From contig CADBYM010000006.1 of assembly GCA_902798915.1 (NCBI GenBank), positions 62,001 to 126,000 of the forward strand: a stretch of 64,000 bases of DNA, written 5' to 3'. Position numbers and translations under genes: made by a program. This document shows positions 11,346 through 28,961 of the stretch, in pieces (within the stretch, counting starts at the first letter, position 1; each line of letters starts with the position of its first letter). Source of the DNA: an uncultured Coriobacteriaceae bacterium. Lineage in GTDB: Bacteria; Actinomycetota; Coriobacteriia; Coriobacteriales; Atopobiaceae. The notes beneath the pieces were generated by a model. The model did not search any database and was not told where the DNA came from. It worked only from the letters and a program-made list of their open reading frames with translations.

Positions 11346-11473
11346 ATCGCAACGACTCCCACCCTCGACCATACGCTGCGACCCATTGTAGTACGACCGG
11401 GTACCCAGACACGCCACTAGAAGCGATGCCAAATGGTGAGTATCTGCTCAGCACTCCCACCCAGCGCCATCAA

Positions 11474-12016: not shown

Positions 12017-12180
12017 GGTAAAGCACTTCGCGACATGCCTCAAGGGTATTTCGGTTGTGTACAATCTATTTGCGCAACAGAGGGTGCGCACGTGAGGCCG
12101 CCACGAGCGACGACGCTACCGGAGAGTCCCTCCGTGGTCAATCCTCCGTGGCAGTGGCGCGGGCTATGGAGGACCGACTG

Positions 12181-12933
12181 ATGGCAGACAGGTTATGGGT
12201 GCTGGGCAGCGCCGGATGGATGCCCGCCGCAGGCCGCGAGACAAGCTGCCTGCTCGTGGAGCTCGGCGACGAGCTGGTGATGCTCGACGCCGGCACGGGC
12301 GTGGCCAACCTTGCACTCGCCTCTGAGGTGCTCGAGCGGCACGATCGCCTGGGCATCGTACTCTCGCACTACCACCTCGACCATGTGGTCGGCCTCATGT
12401 ACCTCAAGCGTTTCGTGGCCGAGATGCGCGTGGACGTATACGGGCCGGGCATCCCTGTGTATCCGCGCAGTACCGCGGCCTACGTCGCAGACCTACTGCA
12501 AGACGCCTTGTACTCCGCCGGCAGCGAGGGCTTTGCCCGAGAGGTGCGCTACCACGACTACGCCGGTCGCGACTTTTGCGTGGGAAACATCCCCATAGCC
12601 GTGCGCGCGCAACACCATTCCGCCCCCTCGTTCGAGCTGAGGCTTGCCGACGCCGTGACCTACGCCACCGACACAGCCTTCCGCGCCTCGGACTGGCACA
12701 CGGCAGCGCCCACGAAGGTGCTTCTCCATGAGTGCTGGCAGGTGGAAGACAAAGACCCGCGGCACACAAGCGCCGAGGCGTTGGCAGCTGGGCTGCCAAC
12801 CAACCGATTCGAACGCACGCTGCTCGTACACCAGAACCCCGAATGGGACCAGACGGCCCGCGCAACGGTCGAGCGCATCGCGCAACGCCACGGCATGGAG
12901 CTCGCACGCGACGGCATGGTCCTCGACCTATAA
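12181..12933 (+). CDS. Metallo-beta-lactamase fold hydrolase (RNase Z-like group)
   Basis: A 250-residue cytosolic hydrolase. GGAGGA seven bases upstream sets the ATG at 12181. It begins LWVLGSAGWMP, with LDAGTG after the first strand pair, then the metal-binding signature SHYHLDH near residue 63 and a later ATDTA carrying the bridging Asp. The layout matches the small RNase Z/ElaC-like branch of the fold; real RNase Z usually has HxHGDH, and here Leu replaces Gly, so another phosphodiester or ester substrate is just as likely. metG starts about 90 bases downstream in the same direction. Confidence 0.85.
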   Translation: MADRLWVLGSAGWMPAAGRETSCLLVELGDELVMLDAGTGVANLALASEVLERHDRLGIVLSHYHLDHVVGLMYLKRFVAEMRVDVYGPGIPVYPRSTAAYVADLLQDALYSAGSEGFAREVRYHDYAGRDFCVGNIPIAVRAQHHSAPSFELRLADAVTYATDTAFRASDWHTAAPTKVLLHECWQVEDKDPRHTSAEALAAGLPTNRFERTLLVHQNPEWDQTARATVERIAQRHGMELARDGMVLDL

Positions 12934-13020
12934 CACAGAGGGGCCGGTCTTCGTTTTCCCTCTTTGGCCAACTTGTGCGATAATCCCTTCGACAACGAAC
13001 AACCCCACGAGAGGAGCACC

Positions 13021-15057
13021 ATGGCCTCCGACGCCCGTCCGCACTTCCCCACCCGCGCCGTCATCACCGGCGGCATGCCCTACGGCAACAAGAACCTCCA
13101 CTTTGGCCACATCGGCGGCGTGTTCGTGCCGGCCGACTTCTTTGCGCGCTTCCTGCGCGACCGCATCGGCAAGCACAACGTGCTCTTCGTCTCGGGAACC
13201 GACTGCTACGGCTCCCCCATCATGGAGGGATATCGCAAGCGCAAGGAGGCCGGCTACGAGGGCACCATAACCGACTACGTCAAGGAGAACCACAAGGCCC
13301 AGAAGGAGGCCCTTGACGCCTACGGCATCTCGCTCGACCTCTTCGCAGGGTCGGGCCTCAAACCAGCCGCCCCCTTCCATGAGGCTCTTACCGAGGACCT
13401 CATCCGTCGCCTATACGAGAAGGGCCACCTCATCAAGCTCTCCACACGCCAGTTCTACGACGTGGAGGCGGGGCAGTTCCTCAATGGCCGCCAGGTGCAG
13501 GGTCGCTGCCCCGTGCGCGGCTGCAAGAGCGAGAAGGCCTATGCCGACGAGTGTGACCTCGGTCACCAGTTCGATCCCGAGGAGCTCATCGCACCCGTCT
13601 CGCAGCTCACCGGCACCACGCCCGAGCTGCGTCCCGTCGACAACTGGTACTTCGACCTGCCCGCCTTCCGCAAGGAGCTCGAGGCGCTCATGGACGAGTG
13701 GGACGCTGACCCGCAGGTGCGCGCCGTCGTGACCAAGACCGTACGCGAGTCGCTCGCCGACCCCGTCATATACGTGCAGAACAAGTTCCGCGAGGCATTC
13801 GACGCCGCAGAGGACGACCTGCCCGACCACACGCTCCAGGAGCCGCAGGGCAACCAGCAGTCCTTCTCCGTCACCTTCGCCGACTGGCGTGCCCGCGATG
13901 CCGCCCGCGAGGTGCTCGATGCCGCAGGCGTGCGCTTCCGCACCGGCAAGACCCTGCTGCCCTTCCGCATCACCGGCAACATCGACTGGGGCGTACCGGC
14001 CCCCGACCTCGAGGGGACCCACGACCTCACCGTCTGGTGCTGGCCCGAGAGCCTGTGGGCGCCCATCTCGTTCTCCCAGACGGCCCTCGCGCTCGACGAG
14101 GAGGAGGCCTTCGAGGGTGGCACGCCGCGCTATGGCTCGCACGACTGGCGCGCTTGGTGGTGCGACGACAACGCTGCCGTGTACCAGTTCATCGGCCAGG
14201 ACAACATCTACTTCTATTGCGTTGCGCAACCCGCCATGTGGGAGGCGCTCGACTGGCTGCTGTTCCAAGACACGCCCATTGCGAACCACCACATCCTCTT
14301 CATGAACAAGAAGGCATCCAGCTCGGGCGAGATCGCACCTCCCATGGCCGCCGAGCTGCTTGAATACTACACGCCCGAGCAGCTGCGCTGCCACTGGCTG
14401 AACCTCGGCCTCGACCAGAAGGCCGTGAGCTTCTCGCCCAAGGCCTTCGACACGAGCGTCAGCCACAAGGACAAGAAGACCGGCGAGGACGTGCTCGTGA
14501 AGGACGACCCGCGCGTGGCCGACCCCGCCCTCAAGGAGAGCGCCTTCCTCACGAACATCTTCAACCGTTTGGCCCGCAGCTGCTTCTATGGTGCGCAGAA
14601 CGCCTGCGACGGGCACCTGCCCGTGGCCGCACCGCACGCCGACGTCGTGGAGGAGGCACGTGAGGTGACGCTCGCCTTCGAACGCGCGGCCTATGTGTTC
14701 GACGCGCACGGCGCCCTCAAGGTCGCCGAGGAATACGCACGCGCGGCAAACAAGCGCTGGGGCGATGCGAGCAAGGCCGCCAAGGGCGACGACGTCGCCT
14801 ATGACCAGGCCCTCGCCGACGCATTCGTCGCACTGCGCACCACCACGTTGCTCATGCACGCCGCCACGCCGTGGGGCTGCGAGAAGATCTGCGAGCACCT
14901 CGCCTTCGACCCAGAGGTGTTCTTTAGCTGGGACCACGCCTTCGAGGGACCCGTCGAGCTCGCGGCACATGCGGGACAGACGCCCGACCAGCATGCACTC
15001 GTGCCGCTCCCGCCGCGCTTCGACTTCTTCCAGAAGCATCCCACCCAAAAGCGCTGA
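13021..15057 (+). CDS. metG: Methionyl-tRNA synthetase, variant with KASSS loop and no C-terminal tRNA-binding domain
   Basis: Class I aminoacyl-tRNA synthetase of 678 residues charging tRNA with methionine. GAGAGGAGC precedes the ATG at 13021. Visible features: GGMPYGNKNLHFGHIGG, where HFGHIGG stands for the HIGH motif; a zinc knuckle CPVRGCKSEKAYADEC; a linker of about 150 residues; IGQDNIYFY; and FMNKKASSSGE, where KASSS takes the place of KMSKS. An anticodon-binding helical domain follows, without the EMAP/Trbp111 domain common in bacterial MetRS. The long central insertion and altered loop make it divergent. It could be the only MetRS or a paralog, which the window cannot tell. A strong hairpin follows the stop. 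Confidence 0.88.
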   Translation: MASDARPHFPTRAVITGGMPYGNKNLHFGHIGGVFVPADFFARFLRDRIGKHNVLFVSGTDCYGSPIMEGYRKRKEAGYEGTITDYVKENHKAQKEALDAYGISLDLFAGSGLKPAAPFHEALTEDLIRRLYEKGHLIKLSTRQFYDVEAGQFLNGRQVQGRCPVRGCKSEKAYADECDLGHQFDPEELIAPVSQLTGTTPELRPVDNWYFDLPAFRKELEALMDEWDADPQVRAVVTKTVRESLADPVIYVQNKFREAFDAAEDDLPDHTLQEPQGNQQSFSVTFADWRARDAAREVLDAAGVRFRTGKTLLPFRITGNIDWGVPAPDLEGTHDLTVWCWPESLWAPISFSQTALALDEEEAFEGGTPRYGSHDWRAWWCDDNAAVYQFIGQDNIYFYCVAQPAMWEALDWLLFQDTPIANHHILFMNKKASSSGEIAPPMAAELLEYYTPEQLRCHWLNLGLDQKAVSFSPKAFDTSVSHKDKKTGEDVLVKDDPRVADPALKESAFLTNIFNRLARSCFYGAQNACDGHLPVAAPHADVVEEAREVTLAFERAAYVFDAHGALKVAEEYARAANKRWGDASKAAKGDDVAYDQALADAFVALRTTTLLMHAATPWGCEKICEHLAFDPEVFFSWDHAFEGPVELAAHAGQTPDQHALVPLPPRFDFFQKHPTQKR

Positions 15058-15540: not shown

Positions 15541-17682
15541 TCATACCGCGTCGAGCACACCTTTGGAGCTGAGCTGCACGGTCTCGCCTGCCTCGACGTT
15601 GATGATATCGGAGGTCGAGCGGTCGCCGAACGTGTCCACGTCCACCCATCCATCACCAGAGTGGGCATACAAGAGCGTCTCCTCATCAGTCTTTACCAGC
15701 AGAAACGCCGTGTATGCGCCAGCGGGAACCGCAGCCTTGGCAAGAGTAGACCCAAGAGGCGGCCAAGTCCTGATGTCCCCGACTCCCTCTTGCGGGAAGA
15801 GGAAGAGGATGAAGCCACCCGCATCCGAAATCTCCACGTCAGGGCACTCGATGGTAATGACGCCCGCACCATCAGGAAGCTTGGTGGGAGGCTCCACGAC
15901 GGTGAACTTCGCCTCGTCAATCGCTTGCTTTACCGCATCGACATACTGCTGGTATCCGGCCTGTGCCATGCACCAAGGCATCAGCTCAGCCATCTGCGGA
16001 TAGTCTGTGTATGGCGTCATGGCAAGTGCCACATTCATCCAGAAGTAGACTTGGTCCTCGGGCGCCATGCCTGCCTGATCCAGCCGATACGAAACTCTGT
16101 TGAGCATCGACGAGTTGACATGCACCCCGCCGTAATCGTTGTCGTCGTTGCCCACATCGACCGATGGCGAGTAGTAGATGTCCCAGGCATACTCCGGCTG
16201 GCAGTAGGCGTGGGGATCGCTCATGGATCGGCTCAAGGTCATCTCGCCACCACCCTCGCCCACAAGCCATGCACCGTTGGGGTCGTCAGATATGAGCATC
16301 TCCACAAGGTTGCCCATGACGTCGCTCATGCCCTCGTTGATGGCGCCCATATCGTTCTTGTAGAGATTGGTGGTCATGGTCGTGCCGGTGACGCAGTGCG
16401 TGAACTCGTGCCCGATGACGTCGATGCACTCGCCATACGAAGCAAGCCTCGTAAAGCTGAAGGTCTGCCAGCCTCCATAGCGACCATCGTAGAGCGCGTT
16501 TTTCTCTTGCTCTCCGTTCTCGTTGACGTAGTCCATGAGCAAAAGTGACGGCGAGCCCATGTCATCCGGGCCAGTCCAGCCAATGTTCTCGAAGAAATCC
16601 CATACGCGAAGGTACGCGTCGTACACCAACAAATCTACGCTCTCGAACGTCGCGTCAGCAGAAGACAAGGGCACGACCCCGTCATCTGAATCGAAGCTCC
16701 TGTAGTCCCCGCAGAGCACCCTGCGCTTGGCATCGCCCAGGAATATCTCGTCCGTGTCCGGGTCGCGCAGTACGGGAACCGTGAGCTCCCTGGTCGTACC
16801 GTCGTGCAGAATCGCATCTCCCTTCCACTCAGTCTGCTCGTATCGATCGAAGTCGAAGGTGAGATGCGTGCTTTCGCCCGTGATCGACTCGACGTCCCAA
16901 GGCTCGAGCACAGGAATGTTGTACAGATACTTGCCATCCTCGCTCACGTAGTGAGCAACGTAGCCCATGTCCACCTCGTCGTAGTAGTTGGGCGTATAGA
17001 CGACCCAAGCGTAGATGCGGTCCTGCGTGCCGTACTCGAGCGCCAAGAGCGTCTGGTGGCTTGCGCCTGGAATCACATCGATGCCCTGCACGCCATCGGC
17101 TGCAAGCTGTTCCTGCACGACCTCCTCCGCCTGCTCCTGCGTAGTTGCCCAGCTATCCAGCCCCTCCATCATGATGTCGGGCATAATCGAGCTCACGAGC
17201 CCTATGGTCTTGTTGTCCTTGTCCACGATGAGCTTAACGGAGGCGCCGTGTACCGTAACGTCGCCGGCCTGCTGTAGGAACGAGTAGTACGTGGTGCCCG
17301 TCTCGGTAGGACGCACCGCCACGCATTCCAGCACAGTCGTCTCGTCTCCGCCGATGCGATCCATGACGCTCTGCACCGCCTTGAGCGCGTCTTCCTCGTC
17401 CTTGACTTGGTCGTCGTAGAAAGGCTCGCCAATGAACGTGGACACGATGTCCTCGCCCAAAAGCGCTTCGTCGTAGGCCTCCTGCAGCTCTGCTGAGACC
17501 TCGTCATCCGCGTCGTCCGCATCCTCAGTGACGTCCCCATCGACGGCTTCGGCTGCTTCCTGCGTCTCCGCGCCATCTGGCACGGGTTGCGGTGCACCGC
17601 ATCCACTCATACCGCCAAGCGCAAATGCCAACGCAAAGGCAGAAAGCAACGCCTTCACACCAAAGCCGTTCATGTGCCTCAT
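15541..17682 (-). CDS. M4-family (thermolysin-type) metalloprotease, predicted lipoprotein
   Basis: About 713 residues. The signal peptide has a basic start, a hydrophobic core (ALLSAFALAFALG) and the lipobox MSGC, so the mature protein should be lipid-anchored outside the membrane. An acidic Asp/Glu linker follows, then an N-terminal FTP/PepSY-like propeptide region (residues about 90-260), and the M4 catalytic domain with GHEFTHCVTG (zinc ligands and catalytic Glu), INEGMSDVMGN (third ligand) and GGVHVNSSMLNRV (catalytic His). A C-terminal beta-rich tail of about 130 residues may be a binding domain. GGAGGGG precedes the ATG at 17682; ATG 17673 is also possible. It probably degrades extracellular proteins or peptides. 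Confidence 0.93.
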   Translation of the reverse strand: MRHMNGFGVKALLSAFALAFALGGMSGCGAPQPVPDGAETQEAAEAVDGDVTEDADDADDEVSAELQEAYDEALLGEDIVSTFIGEPFYDDQVKDEEDALKAVQSVMDRIGGDETTVLECVAVRPTETGTTYYSFLQQAGDVTVHGASVKLIVDKDNKTIGLVSSIMPDIMMEGLDSWATTQEQAEEVVQEQLAADGVQGIDVIPGASHQTLLALEYGTQDRIYAWVVYTPNYYDEVDMGYVAHYVSEDGKYLYNIPVLEPWDVESITGESTHLTFDFDRYEQTEWKGDAILHDGTTRELTVPVLRDPDTDEIFLGDAKRRVLCGDYRSFDSDDGVVPLSSADATFESVDLLVYDAYLRVWDFFENIGWTGPDDMGSPSLLLMDYVNENGEQEKNALYDGRYGGWQTFSFTRLASYGECIDVIGHEFTHCVTGTTMTTNLYKNDMGAINEGMSDVMGNLVEMLISDDPNGAWLVGEGGGEMTLSRSMSDPHAYCQPEYAWDIYYSPSVDVGNDDNDYGGVHVNSSMLNRVSYRLDQAGMAPEDQVYFWMNVALAMTPYTDYPQMAELMPWCMAQAGYQQYVDAVKQAIDEAKFTVVEPPTKLPDGAGVITIECPDVEISDAGGFILFLFPQEGVGDIRTWPPLGSTLAKAAVPAGAYTAFLLVKTDEETLLYAHSGDGWVDVDTFGDRSTSDIINVEAGETVQLSSKGVLDAV

Positions 17683-17825
17683 AGCCGATCGACCCCTCCC
17701 GCATAGTTCCGGAACCGGCAAGCGCCATATCGCTGAGCCGCATTTCGGACAAGATATCACAAACTGGGGGCAGCTACGCTATGATGGGTCGATAGCGCGA
17801 GCGTGAACGAAGGAGGACACCCATC

Positions 17826-18695
17826 ATGACACCAATACCGCCCGAACCCCATTTCCCCAGCCGCTATAGTCGTCCATCCGTGGCACCCAGCATTGCCCGG
17901 CGCGTCACGACGTCCGACGGGGCACAAATCGCCACCTTCGCCTACGGCGCACCAACCCAAGAGGACACTCCCGTGCTCATGCTCCACGGCAACGGAGAAG
18001 AGCACGGCATCTTTGGTCCCATAGTGGATGTAGTCCTTGAGGCAGGGCTTTGGGTCGTCGCCATCGACTCACGGGCACAGGGGATGTCGACGCGCGGGAG
18101 CGCACCGCTCACCTACGAACTGATGGCGAGCGATGCCGTATGCGCACTCGACGCGCTTGGCGTGTCCTGTGCCCATGTACTGGGGTTCTCCGACGGCGGC
18201 ATTGAGGCATTGCTTCTGGGTCGCGACTGGCCCGAGCGCGTCGCTTCCATCACCGCACTTGGCGCAAACCTCACGCCAGACGGTGTAATTGAGGACCCGA
18301 GCTGGGACATCGAGGGATTCGTTGGACTCAATCGGAAGTGGAGCGAGTATTGGCACGATTTCGAGAACTCCAACGAGGCGCAAACAGAGGGAGACGTGGA
18401 CATCACGCTGCTCACGCCCTCCCCGGCCACAGCCTCACAGGACGCCGAGCTGCTCCAACTGATGCTTGACGAGCCGCACATCGAGGCCTCATCCTTGGCC
18501 ACCATATGCTGCCCAACCTGCATTATGGTGGGCGAGCACGACTGCATCGATCCAAGAGAGACCTGTCGCATCGTGAATGCCATACCCGGCGCACGGCTGA
18601 TCACGGTTCCGCACATAGGACACAGCCTGCCCAAGGCAGCCCCTGACGCCGTCAGCGCCCACCTGCTCGCCACCATCATGCGCGCCACTTGCTAG
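17826..18695 (+). CDS. Alpha/beta-fold hydrolase
   Basis: A 289-residue cytosolic hydrolase with AAGGAGG before the ATG. It has the oxyanion segment LMLHGNGEEHGIF, the nucleophile elbow GFSDGG (Ser near residue 122), GEHDCID with the acid Asp, and IGHSLP with the catalytic His, so the full triad is visible. Similar proteins act on esters, amides or lactones; the substrate is unknown. It is divergent from the M4 protease gene and its 3' end overlaps the end of the U32 gene by 4 bases. Confidence 0.9.
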   Translation: MTPIPPEPHFPSRYSRPSVAPSIARRVTTSDGAQIATFAYGAPTQEDTPVLMLHGNGEEHGIFGPIVDVVLEAGLWVVAIDSRAQGMSTRGSAPLTYELMASDAVCALDALGVSCAHVLGFSDGGIEALLLGRDWPERVASITALGANLTPDGVIEDPSWDIEGFVGLNRKWSEYWHDFENSNEAQTEGDVDITLLTPSPATASQDAELLQLMLDEPHIEASSLATICCPTCIMVGEHDCIDPRETCRIVNAIPGARLITVPHIGHSLPKAAPDAVSAHLLATIMRATC

Positions 18696-20245
18696 TAGTC
18701 ACCCCAAGGGCTACGCCATCGGGGATTTTCCCCCTGGCGCAGCCCGACGTGTTCGAGGGCACGTCGATAGCTCGTACGACACTCGAATGCCATTCGGTGC
18801 TCCCAGTGATCCCAGATGCATCCCCCGGCGATGCTGCGATGCACGAGCACGCGCGGCCTTCCCTCAAGGTCCCACACTGGTCGCGGCGGATTCTCGTCGG
18901 CTTCGAGGAAATGCTCGAACTCTGCTGGCCTATCGCCGCGCGTGAGCAACGGCCCTGCCGTCACCTTGAGCCTGCCTCGCCAGATGCCTCCCAAGGACTC
19001 CTCCAAGCGCCCGATCACCTGCGAAAGCTCAATGAGCGTACCAACGTCGTTGACGCAAAGGTCTACGTCAACGGGCGGAAGCGATGCGAGCGTGTCCCGC
19101 AGCAGTTGCAGCGTCTCGCACCAGCGTTGCGGCTCGTGCTCGGATTGCGAGAGCGGCCCCACCAAGAGCACCACCTCAGTCCGCACGCCCGACGCATCGT
19201 ATGCGGCGCATGTGCGAGGCAGCTCTCGAATGGCACTGCGCAACTTCGTCCCATCGCAGGCATCGCCCACATATGTACACCCCTCCCGACCGCCAGTCTC
19301 AATCGGCTCGATGGCCGTTCGGCTCTGAGTCTTTGCGCCGTAGTAGCACGCACACGCCCGACCAAAGGTCTGCCGATACAGGCGCTTGCGTGATTCGTCA
19401 CCTCGCATCCCTTCCGCAGCCTTAAGGAACGAGAGCGCACGCACACGCTCCTCAAGCGGGCGCCCGCGGCCGCCCAACTTGCCAAACTCCACGCCCGCCG
19501 CCCTCAGTCGCTCGCACTCGCATGCGGCGCACGGATACGGCTCGAGGTAGTCGCACGACCTTCCCAGGCAGGCATGCGTACGGTACGTGGTATCAAAGAC
19601 GTACAGTGGCTCGCCTTCAAGATCGGCGTCCACCCCCACGCGATCGGGATAGCTCACGCCATGGTAGTGCGTGCAGTAGCCGTCCACGAGCGGGCACTTG
19701 TCAAAGAAGACCATGCTCTCCGCCTCGACGCGCAGCCCATCGCGCGAACAAGCACGCAGCACGTCACCGACCTCCTCGGCGGCCAAGAAGCGCGGAAAGA
19801 CGACGCGTGAGACGCCAAGTCGCGCGAACGCCGCGACGCTCGGCGCGTTCGCGCAAACCGCGAGCAACGAGCACACGCGCTTGAGCCCGTTCCCGGCCTC
19901 CTCCAGCCGATAGAGCAGGCCCATATCCCGCACGATGACACCTGTCCCACCCATCTGCTCGAAGACATCGGCAAGCCTGACGAGGTAGTCGAGCTGGCGT
20001 TCGTCGTACTGGCCGTTGAGGGCAAGGTACAGTGGCAGGCCATGCGTTCGCGCCGCCTCGGCAGTCTCCGCAAGCTCCTCTCGAGAGGCGAGGTTGGCCC
20101 TGCCCTGTCGACGGCTTATGGAGTCGTGCTCCCCATACCGCTCGGTCCACCACGGCTCCTGCAAGCCACAGTACAGCTCGCCCGCCCCTGCCGCGGCAAG
20201 CGTGGAGACCTCAGAAGCTGCATTGACGGGGACGCTGAAAACCAT
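18692..20245 (-). CDS. U32 peptidase-family protein, last gene of the peptide-modification operon
   Basis: About 517 residues, AAGGGG site before the ATG at 20245. The N-terminal half is a TIM-barrel of the U32 type: ASEVSTLAAAGAGELYCGL, then RANLASREELAETAEAAR, LYLALNGQYD, GVIVRDMGLLYRLEE and VFPRFLAAEEV. A cysteine cluster (ACLGRSCDYLEPYPCAACEC, about residues 245-265) could hold an iron-sulfur cluster, as in U32 relatives acting on RNA or quinones. The C-terminal half is not recognised. It starts 19 bases after the radical SAM gene, as the sixth gene of the operon. Peptidase activity is not established for many U32 proteins; here cleavage or modification of the Cys-rich peptide is an inference from position. 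Confidence 0.82.
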   Translation of the reverse strand: MVFSVPVNAASEVSTLAAAGAGELYCGLQEPWWTERYGEHDSISRRQGRANLASREELAETAEAARTHGLPLYLALNGQYDERQLDYLVRLADVFEQMGGTGVIVRDMGLLYRLEEAGNGLKRVCSLLAVCANAPSVAAFARLGVSRVVFPRFLAAEEVGDVLRACSRDGLRVEAESMVFFDKCPLVDGYCTHYHGVSYPDRVGVDADLEGEPLYVFDTTYRTHACLGRSCDYLEPYPCAACECERLRAAGVEFGKLGGRGRPLEERVRALSFLKAAEGMRGDESRKRLYRQTFGRACACYYGAKTQSRTAIEPIETGGREGCTYVGDACDGTKLRSAIRELPRTCAAYDASGVRTEVVLLVGPLSQSEHEPQRWCETLQLLRDTLASLPPVDVDLCVNDVGTLIELSQVIGRLEESLGGIWRGRLKVTAGPLLTRGDRPAEFEHFLEADENPPRPVWDLEGRPRVLVHRSIAGGCIWDHWEHRMAFECRTSYRRALEHVGLRQGENPRWRSPWGDY

Positions 20246-20264
20246 GGAGAACCCCTTCGTTGCC

Positions 20265-21653
20265 TCAGCCAAGTGCTGCTGCACTGGCAGAAACAAACTC
20301 TCGGTAGGACTGCTCGTTCACCAAACCGAGTATTTCTCGCAGCTCTTCGAGCAAATAATGATAGTCACCTTGCAGGTATGCCCGAGCCGCCATGTAGGGC
20401 TCACGTATGGCGGCGTCAATCCACCGCTCGTGCAAATCCTGCGTTTTTGCAGAGAAGGACCGGTAAAACGCCTCCTCACGAACGCCTAACGACTCGAACG
20501 GACCATCAGGTCCCTGCAGCAACCCTAGCTCAGTTCCCGCAAATGCGATCAGACGACTCACGGCCACTTGGTGCGTGTAGATGCCGAACTCATGCAGCTG
20601 GCGCACCTCGTCAAGCGCCCCCTCGAGCGTCTGCCGTCCGTGCCACAGGATGTAGCCACACTGCAAAGCGATCCCTGCTTCGCGCACAGCACCGAGCACC
20701 TCCGGCAGGCGCCCCACATCGTAAGGCTTGCGCCAAGCACGCAGCGTGGACGGGTTCAGGGACTCCACACCCACAAAGAGCCTTGTCAGACCCGCGTCGT
20801 GCAATGCACACAGGCGCCGAGCAAGATCGGGCTGACCAATCAGTGCCGCCACACGCATCTCGCACGCCCACGCCACCCGCAGACCGCGTCGGTCCAGTTC
20901 AGCGGCAATGCCCTCAAGTCGTACCAAGGGCCCGGCATCGTCATCCACGATGTTGAAGATGGGCGGAAGATCAGCCACCTCGAGCCGTACGCACACATGC
21001 TCGATTTCGTCCACCACGAGGCGAGCATCTCGCCCTTGCCAGCGACGAAGCTCCGACGGAAGCTTCGGCGTGGCACAGAACGTACACGCACCCGGACACC
21101 CACGCGATGTTTGCAAACTGACAGCACATCCCAGCCGTGCATAGCGCTCCGCATGAGGCCGGTACGGCTCCGCCCAAGCGTCGGGCGCGAGGATGCTGTT
21201 AGCAGCCTCACCGTCTCGTGCCAGCGCCAAGAGCGCCGCCTCGCCCTCGCCACGCACCAACACACACGATCGCGGCAGCACTCGCGCCGCCTCATCCGGG
21301 GCGGTAGTCACAAAGACTCCACCCGCCACGAACGTCGCATCAGGGAATCCCGCCCTCAGGCGACTCAAGACACGCCGCGCATCGGGCACGTCGCGGCTCG
21401 TCATGAGCGAGAAGCCAATGACCTGCGGGCCATCACCATTTCTGTGCAACTCGCGCATGTCGTACCAAAAGTTCGAACTAACCCGCGAACTCACGCCAGC
21501 ACGACGCTCCGCTTCGACCAGCCGTCGGTCATATACATCTGCATGAACCCCATTTGCACGCAAGTACCCCGCCAGGCGCTCAATGCCCAGCGGTTCGGAG
21601 AACTCTGGCTCGCCGCCCTCACAGAGCGGACGTATGAGCAGCACGCGCGGCAT
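20265..21653 (-). CDS. Radical SAM enzyme with B12-binding-like N-terminal domain
   Basis: 462 residues. The N-terminal 150 residues resemble the cobalamin-binding domain of BchE-type radical SAM enzymes (PRVLLIRP, then LGIERLAGYLRANG, VIGFSLMTSR and VAGGVFVT), but the DxHxxG cobalamin His motif is not seen, so B12 may bind without a protein His ligand or not at all. The radical SAM cluster motif is CPGACTFC near residue 185, then NIVDDDAGPL and FVGVESLNP, typical of the family. Such enzymes methylate, rearrange or couple unactivated carbons. The ATG at 21653 lies 10 bases after the lipoprotein gene stop; no clear SD is seen, so translation may be coupled. Fifth gene of the operon. Confidence 0.88.
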   Translation of the reverse strand: MPRVLLIRPLCEGGEPEFSEPLGIERLAGYLRANGVHADVYDRRLVEAERRAGVSSRVSSNFWYDMRELHRNGDGPQVIGFSLMTSRDVPDARRVLSRLRAGFPDATFVAGGVFVTTAPDEAARVLPRSCVLVRGEGEAALLALARDGEAANSILAPDAWAEPYRPHAERYARLGCAVSLQTSRGCPGACTFCATPKLPSELRRWQGRDARLVVDEIEHVCVRLEVADLPPIFNIVDDDAGPLVRLEGIAAELDRRGLRVAWACEMRVAALIGQPDLARRLCALHDAGLTRLFVGVESLNPSTLRAWRKPYDVGRLPEVLGAVREAGIALQCGYILWHGRQTLEGALDEVRQLHEFGIYTHQVAVSRLIAFAGTELGLLQGPDGPFESLGVREEAFYRSFSAKTQDLHERWIDAAIREPYMAARAYLQGDYHYLLEELREILGLVNEQSYREFVSASAAALG

Positions 21654-21663
21654 ACCCGACCAG

Positions 21664-23406
21664 CTATTCGTCGAACTTGAGTTCAAGCATTTCGTTCACG
21701 AGCTCCTTGCCTTCGGCGTCGCGTATGATGAACGTTCCCGCAAGGCGCTCGACCCTGCCTTCGCGCAAATCCCCCGCATTCTTCGCGCGGAACAAGAGGT
21801 ACCGATGCCCGACCGTGCCGGTACTGAGCGGAGTGCCAGCACTCAGGAGCTCGACATCCTTGCCGTTCACCGACCATCCATCGCCATCGATGGTTACTGG
21901 CCCCTCTCCCTTATACGAGCCCTTATACTCCACAGCCACGATGCCATCACTCGCAGGCAATACCTTCTGCAATGTGACGGTCACGCCGCCCTCGTCGTCA
22001 ATCATCTTGCCGTCCAGCTCCTTGAAATGTTGCTCGGGATCAGCTTGCCACTTCAAGGGATACGAGGCCACTGGGTCCGAGCCCCAATTGCCCACACTCA
22101 TCACACAGGACAGCTGCTCGAGGTTCCCTTCGACAACCGAGACGACCTTTTCGTCCTCCGTGGAGAAGAAGTTCCCCCATGCACTATCTTGCCCCACGCC
22201 GTCGATGGTAGGCCATCCCGCCGAGAAGTTATCAATCTTCTCACCGTTGGCCGTCACATCGTGTTCCGCGAAGAAGTGGTAGCGCCCTTTCGTGTGGTTG
22301 ATGAACTCGAACTCTGCAATCGGGTTGTCTGCCGACATGTGGTAGCCCGTGAAGACGATGGTGCACACCTCGTCGTCGGCCACGACGTACGGAAGGCCCA
22401 GATGCGCCTCGATCGCAGAGAGATCAACTTCGCTCTTCTCCGCTTTCTTGGCGGGCTTGTCCTCGTCGGAAGCCTCCTTCTCGTCGGTGGCCTTCTGCTC
22501 TGCGGCGTTCTTTTCGTCGGCGGCTTCCTCGTCGGAGGCCTTCTCGTCCGCGGCCTTCTCCGCGTCCGCGCCTGTCTCCACCGCCTCCTCGTACCCAAAC
22601 TGCGTGCCCACAGCGACGAGATACGCACGCAGCGCCTGCGCGTCCTCGTCGTCCGCGAGGTCACCGTCAGCCAACTCGTCCACCGCCGTCCGCAGGCTCT
22701 TGTACACATATTCGCCGTTAGACGCCGTCCCCTGAGCAGCATCGTAGAGCTCGGTCTCGATATCATCCCAGAGCTTGTTGTACTCAAGCTCAGCTTTCAG
22801 CTTGTCGGAGAACTTCGACGACTCATCGCGCACCTTGCGCACCACGACCAACGCCGCATCCTCAAGGGCGCTTTCCGTCGAGAAGCCGCAAGCGACCGCA
22901 GCCGTCTGCACGTTGAGCTGAACCCCATCGTCCTCGGGATACAGCGCCAAGCACGCAAGCGCTTGCACCAGTGCATCATCGTTCTTCTCTTGCTGCATAA
23001 GGGCGAGGGCAAGATTGACGTTGGAGCCGTAATGCTCGGGATACGCCTCGAGAACCTCCTCGTAGCCCTTCTGCGCCTCGTCGTAGTTGCCCGCGCGGTA
23101 TGCCTCGTTGGCCGCCTTGAACGCATCCTTCTGCGCGATGGTGAGCGTGCCCTCTTCCTTCTCTTCCTCGCTCACAGCACGGCGCTCATCGCCCAACGCG
23201 AGCGCCTTCTCCACGTACTCCTCCAGTTCGGACGAATCACGCTTCTCTCGACCCTCGAACGCCCCTTCTACGGGCTCGGGCTCATGCACGGAGGCTTCCT
23301 CACCCTGATGGGAAGAGCCACAGCCAACCAGCACCACACACAGGCACATGACGGCAAGGAGAACGGTGAAGTGACGCTTGGCGACATCTCTTGAACGTCC
23401 GCTCAT
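21664..23406 (-). CDS. Large TPR-containing lipoprotein of the peptide-modification operon
   Basis: About 580 residues. A signal sequence ends at the lipobox LVGC (Cys near residue 30), so it should be anchored to the outer face of the membrane. Residues about 90-180 carry TPR-like repeats (AYRAGNYDEAQKGYEEVLEAYPEHYGS is the clearest). A low-complexity Glu/Ala/Lys/Asp spacer of about 50 residues follows, then a beta-rich C-terminal half of about 210 residues that I cannot name. GGGTGA precedes the ATG at 23406. It begins 13 bases after the Cys-rich peptide gene. Outside location plus TPR suggests it receives or presents a secreted product, which is inference. Confidence 0.82.
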   Translation of the reverse strand: MSGRSRDVAKRHFTVLLAVMCLCVVLVGCGSSHQGEEASVHEPEPVEGAFEGREKRDSSELEEYVEKALALGDERRAVSEEEKEEGTLTIAQKDAFKAANEAYRAGNYDEAQKGYEEVLEAYPEHYGSNVNLALALMQQEKNDDALVQALACLALYPEDDGVQLNVQTAAVACGFSTESALEDAALVVVRKVRDESSKFSDKLKAELEYNKLWDDIETELYDAAQGTASNGEYVYKSLRTAVDELADGDLADDEDAQALRAYLVAVGTQFGYEEAVETGADAEKAADEKASDEEAADEKNAAEQKATDEKEASDEDKPAKKAEKSEVDLSAIEAHLGLPYVVADDEVCTIVFTGYHMSADNPIAEFEFINHTKGRYHFFAEHDVTANGEKIDNFSAGWPTIDGVGQDSAWGNFFSTEDEKVVSVVEGNLEQLSCVMSVGNWGSDPVASYPLKWQADPEQHFKELDGKMIDDEGGVTVTLQKVLPASDGIVAVEYKGSYKGEGPVTIDGDGWSVNGKDVELLSAGTPLSTGTVGHRYLLFRAKNAGDLREGRVERLAGTFIIRDAEGKELVNEMLELKFDE

Positions 23407-23419
23407 TTCCGTCACCCCC

Positions 23420-23902
23420 CTAATGCACCGGCACGCAGGCGCACGGCGCACCACAATCTACCCCGCCTCCTCCCGACGGGACATTGCTCACGCAGCTGCA
23501 GCTCTGGTATCCATCACAGCTGCATACGGAGAGGCACGTGCACACGCTATCGCAGGTGCAAGGCGTCACGATGGGTGTCGGTGTCGCGACGGCATCGCAG
23601 GTGCAAGGCGTCACGACGGGTGTCGGTGTCGCGACGGCGTCGCAGGTGCAAACGCTCAGGCATGTGCAGACGGTGTGCGTGGACGTCACCATGTCACAGG
23701 TGCAATACGTGCCCATCACCTGCGACGAGTATTCGCTCTTTTCCTCGTCGTACTCGTCCACGAAGTAGGTCTTCATGCTCGGTTTGAATACGCTGTTGCC
23801 ATCCACGATAATCTCAATCTGCGGCTTGGGCAGCGCGTCATCCGACGGCTCGTTGAGTGCGCGGTCGTTGTAGCCACCCTTTGTGCTTGTGCTATCGGCC
23901 AT
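23420..23902 (-). CDS. Cys-rich repeat peptide, candidate precursor of a radical-SAM-modified natural product
   Basis: 160 residues with no signal peptide. Residues 1-67 are a hydrophilic leader without Cys (contains KPQIEIIVDGNSVFKP and YFVDEYDEEKSEYSS). The rest carries 19 Cys, 18 of them in nine Cys-x-Cys motifs: six CTC, two CSC and one CAC. Two adjacent copies of a 15-residue unit, CTCDAVATPTPVVTP and CTCDAVATPTPIVTP, sit in the middle; the tail is a Gly4 linker and CGAPCACVPVH. GGGAG eight bases before the ATG at 23902 sets the start, which overlaps the radical SAM/SPASM stop by 11 bases. Leader/Cys-rich-core layout beside a SPASM enzyme resembles ranthipeptide-type precursors, but CxC repeats of this kind match no class I can name. 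Confidence 0.8.
   Translation of the reverse strand: MADSTSTKGGYNDRALNEPSDDALPKPQIEIIVDGNSVFKPSMKTYFVDEYDEEKSEYSSQVMGTYCTCDMVTSTHTVCTCLSVCTCDAVATPTPVVTPCTCDAVATPTPIVTPCTCDSVCTCLSVCSCDGYQSCSCVSNVPSGGGGVDCGAPCACVPVH
23551..23650. repeat. 45-bp tandem repeat inside the Cys-rich peptide gene
   Basis: Units 23551-23595 and 23596-23640 differ at only two positions; the first 10 bases of a third unit follow at 23641-23650. The period is a multiple of three and encodes the 15-residue CTCDAVATPTP unit, so unit number can change without breaking the frame. Confidence 0.95.
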
Positions 23903-25283
23903 CTGCGGAGCTCCCTTCTTCCTGTGGTTCGTAACGAAGCTTGCGCTGAATCTGGTTGAGGGTAAGGGCACGGCTGATCTCGCAGCGCACCGACCCATGA
24001 TGCTCGTCCACTCCGATGCCATCGAGTACCTTGGCCGCGCAGTCGCCCGCACAGTGCCACCTGCAGAAGCAGTCGTCACAGAACCGTATATTGTGGACAC
24101 ACAGCTTGGAAAGCTCGTCGAGCTTCCTCTGGTCAAAGACGAAGCAGTCGGCCTCGGGGTCGTAGTGCCCAAAGAAGAACCGCTCGCTACGCGGATCGCT
24201 TGCATAGCTCACCTCATAGCATGCCGTCACGTCCCCGGTAGGCGTCACGGTAAACGAGCCGGAGCTCACCTTGCAGAACGTATCTGCCAACACGTCCTGG
24301 CGGGCGCCCGAGAAGACGAGCCGTACGCCTCGCTCCTCCGCCACCCGAAGCGACTCGAGGTAGCGACGCACAAAGACCTCGGAGGTAGGCATGACGTTAG
24401 ACGAGGTCTTGCAGCGACCGCACTCCCACACGGGCTCGAAGTGCAGCTGCTCGATGCCAGGGTAGTTGCTCGCCACGAACTCGACGATGTCGGGCATGGC
24501 ATCCACCATGACATCCGTGACCGTCGTGCGCACCCCGAAGCCCACCCCGGCCTCCGCGAGGCGCCGCATGGTGCGATCCACCGCTTCGAACGAGCCCTTT
24601 CCACCCGCAGTCGGACGGTTCGCGTCCTGGAATGCGGGCAGACCGTCAAACGAGACGTTGATTGATCCGAAATTCGCCACGACGAAGTCAATCTGCTCCT
24701 CCGTGAGCACGCCATTGGTCGCCGCGTTGAAGACCACCGGTATATCAAGCTGCTCAGAGACGTCCTGCCCGTACCACACAATCTCCTGAATGAGGTCGAA
24801 CGCACAGAATGGCTCGCCGTTGCCATGGATGGAGACGAGGAAGTTGTGCGTGCCGTCGCCCTCGTCGCGACGCTCGAGAGCGTTTTGTGCCACGAGGTCA
24901 ATCGCGCGCTGGGCACAGCGCAGGTCCATCCGCGTGATGGGCTCGCCGTTTCCGCCGCCCTCCCCACCAAAGGCATAGCAATAGCTGCAGCGGAGGTTGC
25001 AGTTGTTGGTGGGAAAGAGCGTCACCTGCGTCGGGCGGAATCCTCGCACGTGCTGTGGGTAGGCACGCAAGGCGAAGAATCCCCGCTCGCTCAGTGCCTG
25101 CACCACGGCCTTGCCCTCTGGGCTCATGGCATCATAGGCACGATGGTCACTCGCATAGGTGAGGGCCACGTCTGCAGCCGCGTCATTCATCCGTGCCATC
25201 AGCCTTCCGAGCGGCGCATAGAGGATGGGCCCCTCACCATCGCGGAGCACGAAGAGCTCGGGCGGCATCAGTTCTGCGCTCAT
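23892..25283 (-). CDS. Radical SAM/SPASM peptide maturase
   Basis: 463 residues. The radical SAM motif is TNNCNLRCSYCYAFGG (CxxxCxxC, about residues 95-105), with VSIHGNGEP and INVSFDGLPAFQDANRP as expected for SPASM enzymes. The C-terminal region has the cysteines of a SPASM domain binding auxiliary Fe-S clusters: TACYEVSY, then CVHNIRFCDDCFCRWHCAGDC. Residues 1-90 form an N-terminal domain that may bind the peptide leader. Enzymes of this build make thioether, C-C or similar links in ribosomal peptides. The ATG overlaps the stop of the PqqD-like gene (ATGA) and the gene runs 11 bases into the peptide gene, so the three are tightly coupled. Substrate assignment is an inference from this coupling. 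Confidence 0.92.
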   Translation of the reverse strand: MSAELMPPELFVLRDGEGPILYAPLGRLMARMNDAAADVALTYASDHRAYDAMSPEGKAVVQALSERGFFALRAYPQHVRGFRPTQVTLFPTNNCNLRCSYCYAFGGEGGGNGEPITRMDLRCAQRAIDLVAQNALERRDEGDGTHNFLVSIHGNGEPFCAFDLIQEIVWYGQDVSEQLDIPVVFNAATNGVLTEEQIDFVVANFGSINVSFDGLPAFQDANRPTAGGKGSFEAVDRTMRRLAEAGVGFGVRTTVTDVMVDAMPDIVEFVASNYPGIEQLHFEPVWECGRCKTSSNVMPTSEVFVRRYLESLRVAEERGVRLVFSGARQDVLADTFCKVSSGSFTVTPTGDVTACYEVSYASDPRSERFFFGHYDPEADCFVFDQRKLDELSKLCVHNIRFCDDCFCRWHCAGDCAAKVLDGIGVDEHHGSVRCEISRALTLNQIQRKLRYEPQEEGSSADGR

Positions 25284-25684
25284 ACAACCGTCTCCACAAG
25301 GTTCACGAGCACGGTGTTGGCAAGGTATCCCGCCTGCCCGAGCGCGACGAAGAAGGACGCCACGTCTGCCGGACGCACGGGCTGGCCCACCAAGCTCGCG
25401 AGCTCATCGATGCTCTTGCTTCCGTCCGCGAGACTCACGAGCTCGGCACCAACGGAATCCACGTCAAAGAGGTGCGTGCCTCCATGCCAGGCCTGCACCG
25501 CGTCCCACTTCGAGACCAACTCGATGCCGCCCACCATGATAGGTCCACATGCCGTCTCCGGATGAATGACCTCGGGCGTCACGAACCCCGTCGGTGCCGC
25601 CCCGTGCGTTCCAGTACCGGCCACGCACAGCGTCGCAAGCGCCACGAAGCCGAAGGCTCCCCGCAAGAACGACCTTCTTTCCAC
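25280..25684 (-). CDS. PqqD-like protein with twin-arginine signal, first gene of the operon
   Basis: 134 residues from a GTG at 25684, chosen because AAGGAGG lies six bases before it. The product starts MERRSFLRGAFGFVALATLCVAGTG-like, i.e. a twin-arginine motif RRSFLRG and hydrophobic stretch, then a PqqD-like domain: LFDVDSVGAELVSLADGS, IDELASL and FFVALGQAGYL. PqqD domains normally bind peptide leaders in the cytosol and hand them to a radical SAM enzyme, so an export signal is odd; the hydrophobic start might instead be a membrane anchor. The domain assignment rests on pattern only. Confidence 0.78.
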   Translation of the reverse strand: MERRSFLRGAFGFVALATLCVAGTGTHGAAPTGFVTPEVIHPETACGPIMVGGIELVSKWDAVQAWHGGTHLFDVDSVGAELVSLADGSKSIDELASLVGQPVRPADVASFFVALGQAGYLANTVLVNLVETVV

Positions 25685-25723: not shown

Positions 25724-25729
25724 ATTATA
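25724..25729 (-). promoter_or_regulatory. TATAAT -10 element for the peptide-modification operon
   Basis: A perfect TATAAT on the minus strand, preceded by TG, lies about 40 bases before the GTG start of the PqqD-like gene and overlaps the stop region of the histidine kinase gene. No good -35 hexamer is seen at 17 bases, so an activator may be needed, or the operon may also be read from upstream. Confidence 0.5.
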
Positions 25730-28211
25730 CATGCCTGCTTCCCGCAATGTGCTCACGCAGAGAATCCAGCAGGTCCTCCGGGTTGAACGGCTTGGCGACG
25801 TGCGCGTTCATCCCCACTTCTATGCAATGTCTGACGTCCTCGTCATAGGCACTGGCACTCATCGCAATGATGGGCAGCGTCCGGTAATACTCCCCCTCCA
25901 GCGAGCGAATCCCCTTCGTCGACTCAAAACCGTTCATGATGGGCATCTGAATGTCCATGAGAACCGCATCGTAGTGTCCCAGCGGATGGCTCCTCACCTT
26001 CTCTATGCCGATCTTTCCGTTCTCGGCCCGGTCCGCCTCAATCCCATATTGGCCAAGGACCATGCTTGCAATCTCCGCGTTGATGTCGTTGTCCTCAACC
26101 ACCAACACCCGAAGCCCGTCGAAGTCGAATTCGTCCCCCTCAACCGGTTCGTTCTCCGCCTCGCCCTCGTCCTCCAGCGACTCCAGCTCCAACTCGACCG
26201 TGAACTCCGAACCCTCGCCTACGGTGCTCTTCACGGAAATCGTACCGCCCATCAGCTCGACGACCCTCGCCGTGATCGCCAGCCCCAGACCGGTGCCCTG
26301 TATGCGGTTGACGGTCGTCTTCTCCTCGCGGGTGAAGCTCTCGAAGATGTGCGGCAGGTATTCCTCGCTGATGCCGATGCCGGTGTCGCGGACGATGAGA
26401 CGATAACGATGCCAGTTCCCCTCGAGAGGCTCCTCCTCGGCGACCAGGTCGACCGTCTTGCCTGCCGGCGTATACTTGACGGCATTGCTCACGATGTTGA
26501 CCAGCACCTGCTCAAGTCGCAACTCGTCTGCGTTAACCCTGGTGTGCCGCACGCCCTCGTGATGATAGCTGATGATGAGCGACTTGTCCCTTGCCTGGAG
26601 CGCGGTGATGTCCTCGATGCGACGGAAGACCTCCTCCAAGTTGCACGGGCCTGGGTTGACCTGCATCTTGCCGCTCTCGATCTTCGAAATGTCCAAGATG
26701 TCGTTGATGAGCGACAGTAGGAAGTGGCTGGAGGAGCTGATCTTCTCAAGCGCATCCATGACCGCCTCCGGATCGTCCCGACGGCTCTTGGCGATGTTGG
26801 TATATCCCACGATGGCGTTCATCGGCGTCCGGATGTCGTGCGACATATTGGCAAGAAAGTCGTTGCGTGCGCTGATTCTCGCCTCCGCCATATGCTGCTG
26901 GTATTCCAACTCGCGCTTCATTTGGGCGTCTATCTTGTTCGTGCCGATGATCAGATGGCGCCCGTCCTCGTCTTCCAGAAGCGTCGCCTTCATGCTCACC
27001 CACACGGGAACACCTCCCGACATGAGTCGATACTTCATGGTGAAGCTTCCATCACGTTCCAAGATGGACATGACCTTCTCCTTGTAGAAGGTCCCCAAGA
27101 AGCGCTCCTCGTCACCACTGTATATCAGGCGCCTCATGTTCTTCCTGCTGACGTTGAAGAAGTCCTCCCCGACCCGTTCTACACCGAGGTCGTCGTGCTC
27201 CTTCGTCGCGCTGTACTCCATGAATCTGTCTGTGTCGGGATTGACTATGTAGATGCTGAAGTAGTCGCCCGCCAAGGCCTGCGCCACCTTCGCGTAGGTG
27301 ATGTGCTCGGCTGCCACCTGACGGTATTCCTCCTGCGCCCTCCACGCGTCTTCCAGCGCCTTCTTCATCGCGCGTCCCTGACGGACCTCGTCATCGACGT
27401 CCTTGAAGCCCATCGTCACGCCGATGCGGCCACCAGGCATGCACACCTTGCCGAAATCGATTCGGTAATGCCTCACGCCCGTCTCCAAGGCGCGAAGGAA
27501 GCTGACCGAGAACTGATCTTTTGTCTCGAATTGCTTCAGTATGTAGGGAAGCCCGATCTGCTCCTGCATCCGCTCTCGGTCCTGCTCTGCGACCATCGTG
27601 TCGACGTACTCCGTCTTGGTCTCCGTGTACCGGGCATGGCTCAGGGCGTTGCGAATGGCCTCCGCATGCATCTGATCCTTGTCTGTGTGATACAGGGCGC
27701 AGGTCTCCGCCACCACGTCACTGATCAGCCATACGGTGTTGTAGGAGTTGATTAGCGAGGCGATCACGGCGTCACGGGTCGCCTTGTCCGTCTCCCGTTG
27801 CTCCCGCTTTTCTGTTATGTCCGAGATGAACACGACGTAGATGCCACCGTATGCCTTCGTCTCGCAGTAGTGACCGTAGTCGTCAACCCAGCGAATCACC
27901 CCATCCTTGCGCGTGATGCGGTACTCCGCGTAGTCCATCTGTTCCGTGCTGCTTAGGACCTGACGTTCGATGGAGGCGTATACGCCATCGTAGTCATCGG
28001 CATGCACCATACCCTTGAAGGTAAAGCCCGTGAACGCCTTGAACTCTTCCAAGCTCGCGCAACCGAAGATGTCAAAGACAGGCTTGTTGGCATAGACCAG
28101 CTCCCCCGGTTCCTCAGCGCGATAGATGAAGAAGCCACCCGGCATGTGCCCGCCGATCTCCTCAATGATGGAGAGGGTGTCTTCCGTCAGCTCGAACTGT
28201 TTGCCTGCCAT
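25725..28211 (-). CDS. Hybrid sensor histidine kinase with PAS domains and a receiver domain
   Basis: 828 residues; GGAGG before the ATG at 28211. No membrane segment, so it is cytosolic. Order: PAS/PAC at residues 15-135 (GGFFIYRAEEPGELVYANK), a GAF/PAS-like middle, another PAS region to about 430, HisKA with NDFLANMSHDIRTPMNAIVG (phospho-His near 452), HATPase with NAVKYTP, DTGIGISEEYL and GTGLGLAI, and a C-terminal receiver with VVEDND, LMDIQMPIMNG (phospho-Asp) and AKPF. No DNA-binding partner lies next to it. It stops 41 bases before the start of the peptide-modification operon on the same strand, so it may be co-transcribed with or regulate it; this is a guess from position. Confidence 0.93.
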   Translation of the reverse strand: MAGKQFELTEDTLSIIEEIGGHMPGGFFIYRAEEPGELVYANKPVFDIFGCASLEEFKAFTGFTFKGMVHADDYDGVYASIERQVLSSTEQMDYAEYRITRKDGVIRWVDDYGHYCETKAYGGIYVVFISDITEKREQRETDKATRDAVIASLINSYNTVWLISDVVAETCALYHTDKDQMHAEAIRNALSHARYTETKTEYVDTMVAEQDRERMQEQIGLPYILKQFETKDQFSVSFLRALETGVRHYRIDFGKVCMPGGRIGVTMGFKDVDDEVRQGRAMKKALEDAWRAQEEYRQVAAEHITYAKVAQALAGDYFSIYIVNPDTDRFMEYSATKEHDDLGVERVGEDFFNVSRKNMRRLIYSGDEERFLGTFYKEKVMSILERDGSFTMKYRLMSGGVPVWVSMKATLLEDEDGRHLIIGTNKIDAQMKRELEYQQHMAEARISARNDFLANMSHDIRTPMNAIVGYTNIAKSRRDDPEAVMDALEKISSSSHFLLSLINDILDISKIESGKMQVNPGPCNLEEVFRRIEDITALQARDKSLIISYHHEGVRHTRVNADELRLEQVLVNIVSNAVKYTPAGKTVDLVAEEEPLEGNWHRYRLIVRDTGIGISEEYLPHIFESFTREEKTTVNRIQGTGLGLAITARVVELMGGTISVKSTVGEGSEFTVELELESLEDEGEAENEPVEGDEFDFDGLRVLVVEDNDINAEIASMVLGQYGIEADRAENGKIGIEKVRSHPLGHYDAVLMDIQMPIMNGFESTKGIRSLEGEYYRTLPIIAMSASAYDEDVRHCIEVGMNAHVAKPFNPEDLLDSLREHIAGSRHV

Positions 28212-28299
28212 TTTGACCTCCGCATCGTTGCTCGCGAAGACGTGCCATGCCACCTCGCACGCATGTCGTTTCCCGCCGTCCCAAAGAACGGCCAAACCC

Positions 28300-28327
28300 A
28301 CTATACCGTCAACGACCACGATTACAA
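28300..28327 (-). promoter_or_regulatory. Putative promoter for the histidine kinase gene
   Basis: Minus strand TTGTAA (28322-28327), a 16-base spacer and TATAGT (28300-28305), about 90 bases before the ATG. It diverges from the marR promoter in the same 270-base intergenic region. Confidence 0.4.
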
Positions 28328-28416
28328 TCGCGCCGTCCAAGCGGTAACCCCGCGCGGCCGCCCCGAGACCCCTGCGTAGGCCAGCAGGCATCATGCAGAC
28401 CGCCTTGAATTCTTTC

Positions 28417-28464
28417 GGTACCTTGACATCTGCGGAAGCGTAGCATAAGATAGCTAGGTACCTA
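28417..28464 (+). promoter_or_regulatory. marR promoter flanked by two GGTACC palindromes (probable operator)
   Basis: TTGACA (28423-28428), a 17-base spacer and TAAGAT (28446-28451) form a near-consensus promoter. A perfect 10-bp palindrome TAGGTACCTA (28455-28464) covers the expected start point, and a second GGTACC core (28417-28422) touches the -35 box. The cores are 40 bp apart, about four helical turns, which suits two repressor dimers on one face. Autoregulation by the MarR protein encoded next is the natural reading. Confidence 0.75.
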
Positions 28465-28481
28465 ATGGATTGGAGGAAGTC

Positions 28482-28961
28482 TTGGACGTCGAATACGATG
28501 TCTCGGCAGAACCGCCCGACCCCGCCGACATGCTGCATTGCCTGGGCTACTTCGGACACTACCTGCACGTACACGAGGGTGGTCGCGGCGGCAAACGGTT
28601 CGTGCTTTGCACACTTCACAAGTGCGGCGGCCTTCTTACACAGCGGGAGCTGCTCGAGCACACCCACACGAGTTCGGCCGCGCTCTCGGAAGTGCTCGCC
28701 AAGCTCGAGTCCGAGCAGCTGATTTCCCGTAAGCCCTACGAGCGCGATCGCCGGCAGCTCAGTATTGAGCTCACGTCACGGGGACGCGTAGAGGCCGCGC
28801 ACGTCCATAGCGAGCGTATGCAGTTCGAGGGCGAGGCATTCGCATGCCTCACCCCCCGCGAACAGGACATGCTTGGGCGAATGCTGGAGAGGCTCGTAAC
28901 CCACTGGAAGGAACTGGAAGAACCAAAGTCACCTGAGGTGAGCAAGGAGGTGGTCGTATGA
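28482..28961 (+). CDS. MarR-family transcriptional regulator
   Basis: 159 residues. The start is placed at TTG 28482, five bases after GGAGG; TTG 28470 is less likely. The winged-helix core reads RFVLCTLHKCGGLLTQREL, then HTSSAALSEVLAKLESEQL (recognition helix) and YERDRRQLSIELTSRGR (wing with the DRR motif). It probably represses its own operon with the two ABC genes and is released by a drug-like ligand. The stop is overlapped by the first ABC gene in an ATGA junction. Two Cys in the N-terminal half (LHCLG and LCTLHKC region) could sense oxidation, but this is only a possibility. Confidence 0.93.
   Translation: MDVEYDVSAEPPDPADMLHCLGYFGHYLHVHEGGRGGKRFVLCTLHKCGGLLTQRELLEHTHTSSAALSEVLAKLESEQLISRKPYERDRRQLSIELTSRGRVEAAHVHSERMQFEGEAFACLTPREQDMLGRMLERLVTHWKELEEPKSPEVSKEVVV

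Follow-up and report, generated by a model that had tools for sequence, protein, structure and literature searches.

Our analysis of the window, a stretch of 64,000 nucleotides from an uncultured Coriobacteriaceae bacterium, revealed a conserved six-gene operon which, on balance, we read as a RiPP-like system whose Cys-rich product, probably cross-linked by thioethers, is bound for the outer face of the cytoplasmic membrane. The parts of this reading carry different weight: modification of the peptide by the radical SAM/SPASM enzyme of gene 2 is predicted with high confidence, a destination outside the cytoplasm is likely, thioether chemistry is reasonably probable, and co-export of the peptide with the gene 1 protein through the Tat pathway is a tentative proposal. 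The operon occupies positions 18692–25684 of the minus strand. Its six tightly packed genes all lie at the positions given in the preliminary description, and their coordinates, for which we made our own choice of starts, reproduce the spacings of −11 to +19 bases reported there: in transcription order, overlaps of 4 and 11 bases are followed by gaps of 13, 10 and 19 bases. Gene 1 starts with a GTG codon with a good Shine-Dalgarno sequence. A hybrid histidine kinase with PAS, HisKA, HATPase and receiver domains (25725–28667, minus strand) ends only 40 bases upstream of gene 1, so that the transcript may comprise more than six genes, with the kinase as a possible leading cistron. The kinase is also located directly upstream of the operon in its closest relatives (L041 and L042) and about 2.6 kb away in L070, and it is absent beside most other copies; the association could reflect a recent regulatory link. 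Downstream of the operon, beyond a hydrolase gene, the same strand encodes a metallopeptidase of the thermolysin-like M4 type whose N-terminus resembles a lipoprotein signal (15541–17760).

The layout is beyond chance: of 200 related genomes, 25 contain relatives of the SPASM enzyme, 33 loci with such relatives emerged from a scan of 84,980 species, and the order RRE, SPASM, peptide, TPR, B12 enzyme and U32 is repeated at about 18 loci for which sufficient flanking sequence was available. The six-gene order which the preliminary description had proposed to look for in other Coriobacteriia is therefore shared, mostly among gut members of the class. Nearly all loci with SPASM relatives come from metagenome-assembled Coriobacteriia, several of them from the gut of sheep or goats according to their record titles; the RUG genomes among them are rumen assemblies. 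In a phylum-wide sample of 396 genomes, the SPASM enzyme was found in the home genome only. The whole gene set was also detected in a distant bacterium, UBA2214 (L071), with a SPASM enzyme of 37% identity. Two further loci (L072 and L073; 22% identity) were set aside, as they lack matching neighbours. In one locus (L065:10001-11343), the SPASM gene, also contained in genome G007, is split in two frames, and this copy may be broken or mis-sequenced.

Gene 2 (23892–25283) encodes a radical SAM/SPASM protein whose best solved relative, by sequence as well as by predicted structure, is the peptide maturase CteB. The model aligns with CteB over 405 positions (residues 7–452; Z 30.8, rmsd 4.0), including the CteB RRE, and reproduces its RRE–radical SAM–SPASM architecture. 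Since the match spans this domain, gene 2 is predicted to have a leader-binding domain of its own at its N-terminus, which would leave gene 1 free for another role. The CX3CX2C motif is present in 31 of 32 homologues, and the auxiliary Cys residues are conserved. The best NCBIfam models are those of PapB (114.9 of 340 bits) and the SCIFF maturase (107.3 of 425 bits), both far under their cut-offs. The protein falls below every NCBIfam cut-off and has no equivalog in NCBIfam or Pfam, and assignments as a PapB, SCIFF, nif11, CXXX-repeat, geopeptide or similar maturase were rejected, as all scores were far below the cut-offs. The preliminary description had stated that the system matches no class it could name; this stands insofar as no named family model fits, but by sequence and predicted fold gene 2 is clearly nearest to the SCIFF/ranthipeptide (thioether) maturases.

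The small Cys-rich precursor gene that adjoins the enzyme gene is a further feature shared with the SCIFF/ranthipeptide systems CteA–CteB and PapA–PapB (freyrasin). Gene 3 (23420–23902) encodes a peptide of 160 aa with the conserved leader LPKPQIEIIVDGNSVFKPSMKTYFVD and a CxC-repeat core ending in CGAPCACVPVH. The leader LPKPQIEIIVDG.SVFKPGMKTYFVD is common to its homologues, most of which also have the C-terminal end SCGSPCACVPVH; no family of NCBIfam, and none of Pfam with significance, matches the precursors tested. They range from 105 to 229 aa with 10–21 Cys each, unlike the precursors of the known systems, which have six Cys in 45 residues or CX3D repeats, patterns that gene 3 does not follow. 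Across 29 precursor sequences, 440 of 473 Cys residues form CxC pairs, most commonly spaced by 6, with S, T or A as the middle residue in 212 of 220 pairs. The residue after the pair is D or E in 131 cases and V or L in many others. PapB links Cys to Asp or Glu at spacings of 0–6 (PMC9413430), and linkage of this type would be compatible with the CxC[DE] pairs. Judging from the precursors, it cannot account for all CxC pairs, because many are followed by V or L.

The dominance of CxC pairs in the core also suits a metal-binding or redox domain, in which metallothionein- or ferredoxin-like repeats with few modified positions would serve metal or electron handling outside the cell. Folded, cofactor-loaded proteins are commonly exported by Tat (PMC3623810), which would agree with the export signal described below. 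We nevertheless regard such a domain as unlikely, as the combination of a SCIFF-like maturase, an RRE and a leader usually marks cross-linking of Cys rather than free thiolates (PMC8326336). A cross-linked peptide is thus our preferred reading, and the system probably works like a ranthipeptide system. It cannot be filed as one, because gene 2 fails the family cut-offs, the precursor differs and the bonds are only predicted, from the enzyme class; moreover, the known systems lack the additional exported RRE, TPR lipoprotein, B12 enzyme and U32 protein.

RREs are cytoplasmic adaptors that hold the leader for the modifying enzymes. Gene 1 (25280–25684), in addition to a domain of this kind, begins with a putative Tat signal (MERRSFLRGAFGFVALATL). 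The predicted model is a beta3-alpha3 winged helix with a pLDDT of at least 90 over the domain, and its top Foldseek matches are RREs; LynD, TruD, PbtF, lasso B1 proteins and TigE are the best structural matches. The Z values of 8.2 to TigE and 8.1 to lasso B1 (rmsd 2.8–2.9, about 80 aligned residues) are moderate for a small domain and are closely followed by those of some non-RRE winged helices. A weak match to Pfam PqqD was obtained for 26 of 27 family members, with the L071 protein exceeding the cut-off, and the family also matches the ApyI profile weakly. Based on the model, gene 1 is assigned as a stand-alone RRE of the PqqD fold, in agreement with the PqqD-like protein proposed earlier and now refined by its N-terminal export signal. 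With hhalign, homology between this domain and the N-terminal domain of gene 2 was not detected, and it is the predicted structures that identify both as RREs. While fold and profile matches are shared with the stand-alone RREs PqqD, lasso B1, ScmD and ApyI, gene 1 differs from them by its conserved Tat signal, which in some members is of the Tat-lipoprotein type, and by its position next to an enzyme already equipped with an RRE.

An N-terminal RRxF[VLIM] motif followed by a hydrophobic stretch (hydropathy 1.4–2.8) was found in all 31 gene 1 homologues, four of which also carry a lipobox. Eight of 27 family members match the Tat-signal model TIGR01409 at E up to 1, and the RRE of the distant locus L090 exceeds its curated cut-off. 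Since the motif is invariant, TatC is encoded in the home genome and the L090 signal lies above the cut-off, export of gene 1 is a well-supported prediction. The protein of the window has no obvious signal-peptidase site and may therefore remain anchored in the membrane. Furthermore, gene 4 (21664–23406) encodes a TPR lipoprotein (TPR_16 over the Pfam cut-off) with the lipobox LVGC, whose Cys is conserved in 28 of 28 homologues. The extracellular or envelope destination predicted in the preliminary description is supported.

In distant relatives, Tat signals occur on either side of the presumed pairing. Locus L090 encodes a Tat-RRE, a SPASM enzyme and a CTC-repeat peptide in that order. In two genomes related to UBA2214, the SPASM homologues adjoin WD40 beta-propeller proteins with Cys-rich C-terminal CTC tails (L094:2019-3422, minus strand; L100:10378-11211 and 11319-13025, plus strand). 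Of these, the protein from L094 and one of the L100 pair have their own Tat motif. L100 additionally encodes a putative RRE-like protein with twin arginines but without the hydrophobic part and without a family match. Screening 194 genomes for Cys tails of the WD40 type returned only the two already known. Passage of the modified part by Tat is favoured mainly because the signal sits on the binding partner in some loci and on the substrate itself in others, an argument from few loci and, for the substrate-borne signal, from two proteins only. A different conserved cluster was seen in three further loci (L098:307-5662, L099:3452-6858 and L101:3-3644), with two or three SPASM-like genes and a small protein of about 90 aa; one protein of the L098 cluster begins RRRFFRHFF and lacks a hydrophobic stretch. 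In L096 (4936-12952), several radical SAM-like genes share one packed stretch with genes resembling nucleotidyltransferases and kinases.

Tat moves folded proteins and their bound partners. In the sequence of events that we propose, the RRE of gene 2 would bind the precursor leader and the C-[STA]-C repeats would be cross-linked in the SCIFF/ranthipeptide manner, a step that builds on the enzyme class established by sequence and predicted structure. Because of this property of Tat, gene 1, a putative leader-binding protein, would then most likely escort the folded, modified peptide through the Tat translocon and keep it outside beside the TPR lipoprotein, which may help to hold or use it. Partners without a signal are known to be co-exported by Tat in Escherichia coli, where PaoB and PaoC cross as parts of the PaoABC complex (PMC4273604). 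Judging from the flanks of the homologous loci, the conserved gene set comprises neither a peptide exporter nor a leader protease, and as a protease is missing from this set, the leader may be kept on the peptide.

A general exporter encoded elsewhere could instead release the peptide, with the Tat-RRE, as a receptor or holder outside the cell, capturing it without co-export. This would agree with the separate export signal of gene 1 and with a gene 2 that needs no separate RRE, and an RRE on the outside would suit a surface complex with the TPR lipoprotein. We consider it rather improbable in view of the lack of conserved transporter and leader protease genes beside the operon and of the two distant loci where the substrate itself bears the Tat signal. 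Still less probable is an ordinary secreted antimicrobial or signalling ranthipeptide for which gene 1 is a normal leader chaperone, anchored in the membrane by chance. The enzyme class of gene 2 would fit, and work on Clostridia has connected peptides derived from SCIFF with quorum sensing (Chen et al. 2020, as cited in PMC8326336). However, the locus has no immunity gene, exporter or protease, the leader and C-terminus of the precursor are strongly conserved, the Tat signal is common to all gene 1 homologues, and WD40 proteins bear a similar Cys tail.

Whereas the first four genes, encoding the Tat-RRE, the SPASM enzyme, the peptide and the exported TPR protein, appear to form the core of the system, the last two seem to be accessories that track the core and are missing from some homologues. 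Gene 5 (20265–21653) has B12-binding and radical SAM Pfam domains, both over the cut-off; its family carries CX3CX2C in 24 of 25 members and no DxHxxG. Gene 6 (18692–20245) scores 52.0 bits with Pfam U32 (cut-off 22.4); a PDB sequence search with it returned nothing. Its family has seven invariant Cys residues and a C-terminal extension and shares with the U32 oxidases UbiU/UbiV, TrhP and RlhA the U32 domain and, of the CX6CX15CX3C Fe-S motif, the CX6C half. It differs from these oxidases by other conserved Cys, the extension, a peptide substrate gene nearby and the lack of CX15CX3C (missing in 24 of 24 members, so that the full motif occurs in 0 of 24), while a canonical U32 protein of the home genome has the full motif and another has a near variant. 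Genomes G565 and G142 keep the core without either accessory gene, and G564 keeps it without the B12 enzyme and with only a weak U32 match (E 1e-16), on which the division into core and accessories is based; these assemblies may be incomplete. The G142 locus (L040) encodes, in order, the Tat-RRE, the SPASM enzyme, the peptide and a TPR protein whose N-terminus contains a hydrophobic stretch.

These core-only genomes would be expected if genes 5 and 6 belonged to a linked lipid or cofactor pathway outside peptide maturation, as would the best NCBIfam relatives of gene 5, which are lipid and tetrapyrrole enzymes and assign it to no functional subfamily. In a test of 55 genomes, however, both genes were absent from all 19 Coriobacteriia without the SPASM enzyme and present in most genomes bearing it. 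They also remain near the core where the order is rearranged: the last two genes are swapped in L045 and L065, the U32 gene lies upstream in L052, and in G012/G566 both genes lie within about 12 kb of the core, to either side. A separate pathway thus seems doubtful to us, and we favour a role of both genes in maturation, where they would introduce additional modifications, C-methylation and oxygen-free hydroxylation being the most plausible. Since U32 oxidases hydroxylate without O2 (PMC11574389), hydroxylation of the peptide by gene 6 is a reasonable but weak inference, and by analogy the protein may possibly, though not probably, act as a hydroxylase. The most elaborate version of our model, in which the peptide is modified and folded in the cytoplasm, crosses as a Tat passenger on the exported RRE and is hydroxylated without oxygen by the U32 enzyme, is accordingly speculative and, taken as a whole, unlikely.

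Sec-exported RiPPs, with DUF2282 precursors and DUF2063-associated RREs (PMC12710340), likewise place a modified Cys-containing peptide outside the cytoplasm. The enzymes of our operon are radical SAM proteins, and its export signal is of the Tat type and sits on the RRE partner, whereas those systems carry a Sec signal on the precursor. In the open literature, with most subscription journals outside the search, we found no matching paper on U32 proteins with RiPP or radical SAM precursor peptides, on Tat with RiPPs, or on RiPPs of Coriobacteria. Within this incomplete search, a cross-linked Cys-rich peptide with a peptide-binding partner that has its own export signal had no published description.

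Overall, the conserved Tat signal on an RRE beside an RRE-bearing enzyme suggests a second role for RREs, namely carrying or holding the finished peptide outside the cytoplasm. If true, modified peptides would have a way out of the cytoplasm that needs no dedicated transporter, and gene 6 might be the first peptide-linked U32 enzyme. The combination of a Tat-RRE, a SPASM enzyme and a CxC peptide or tail provides a searchable signature, which has already been found beyond the Coriobacteriia.
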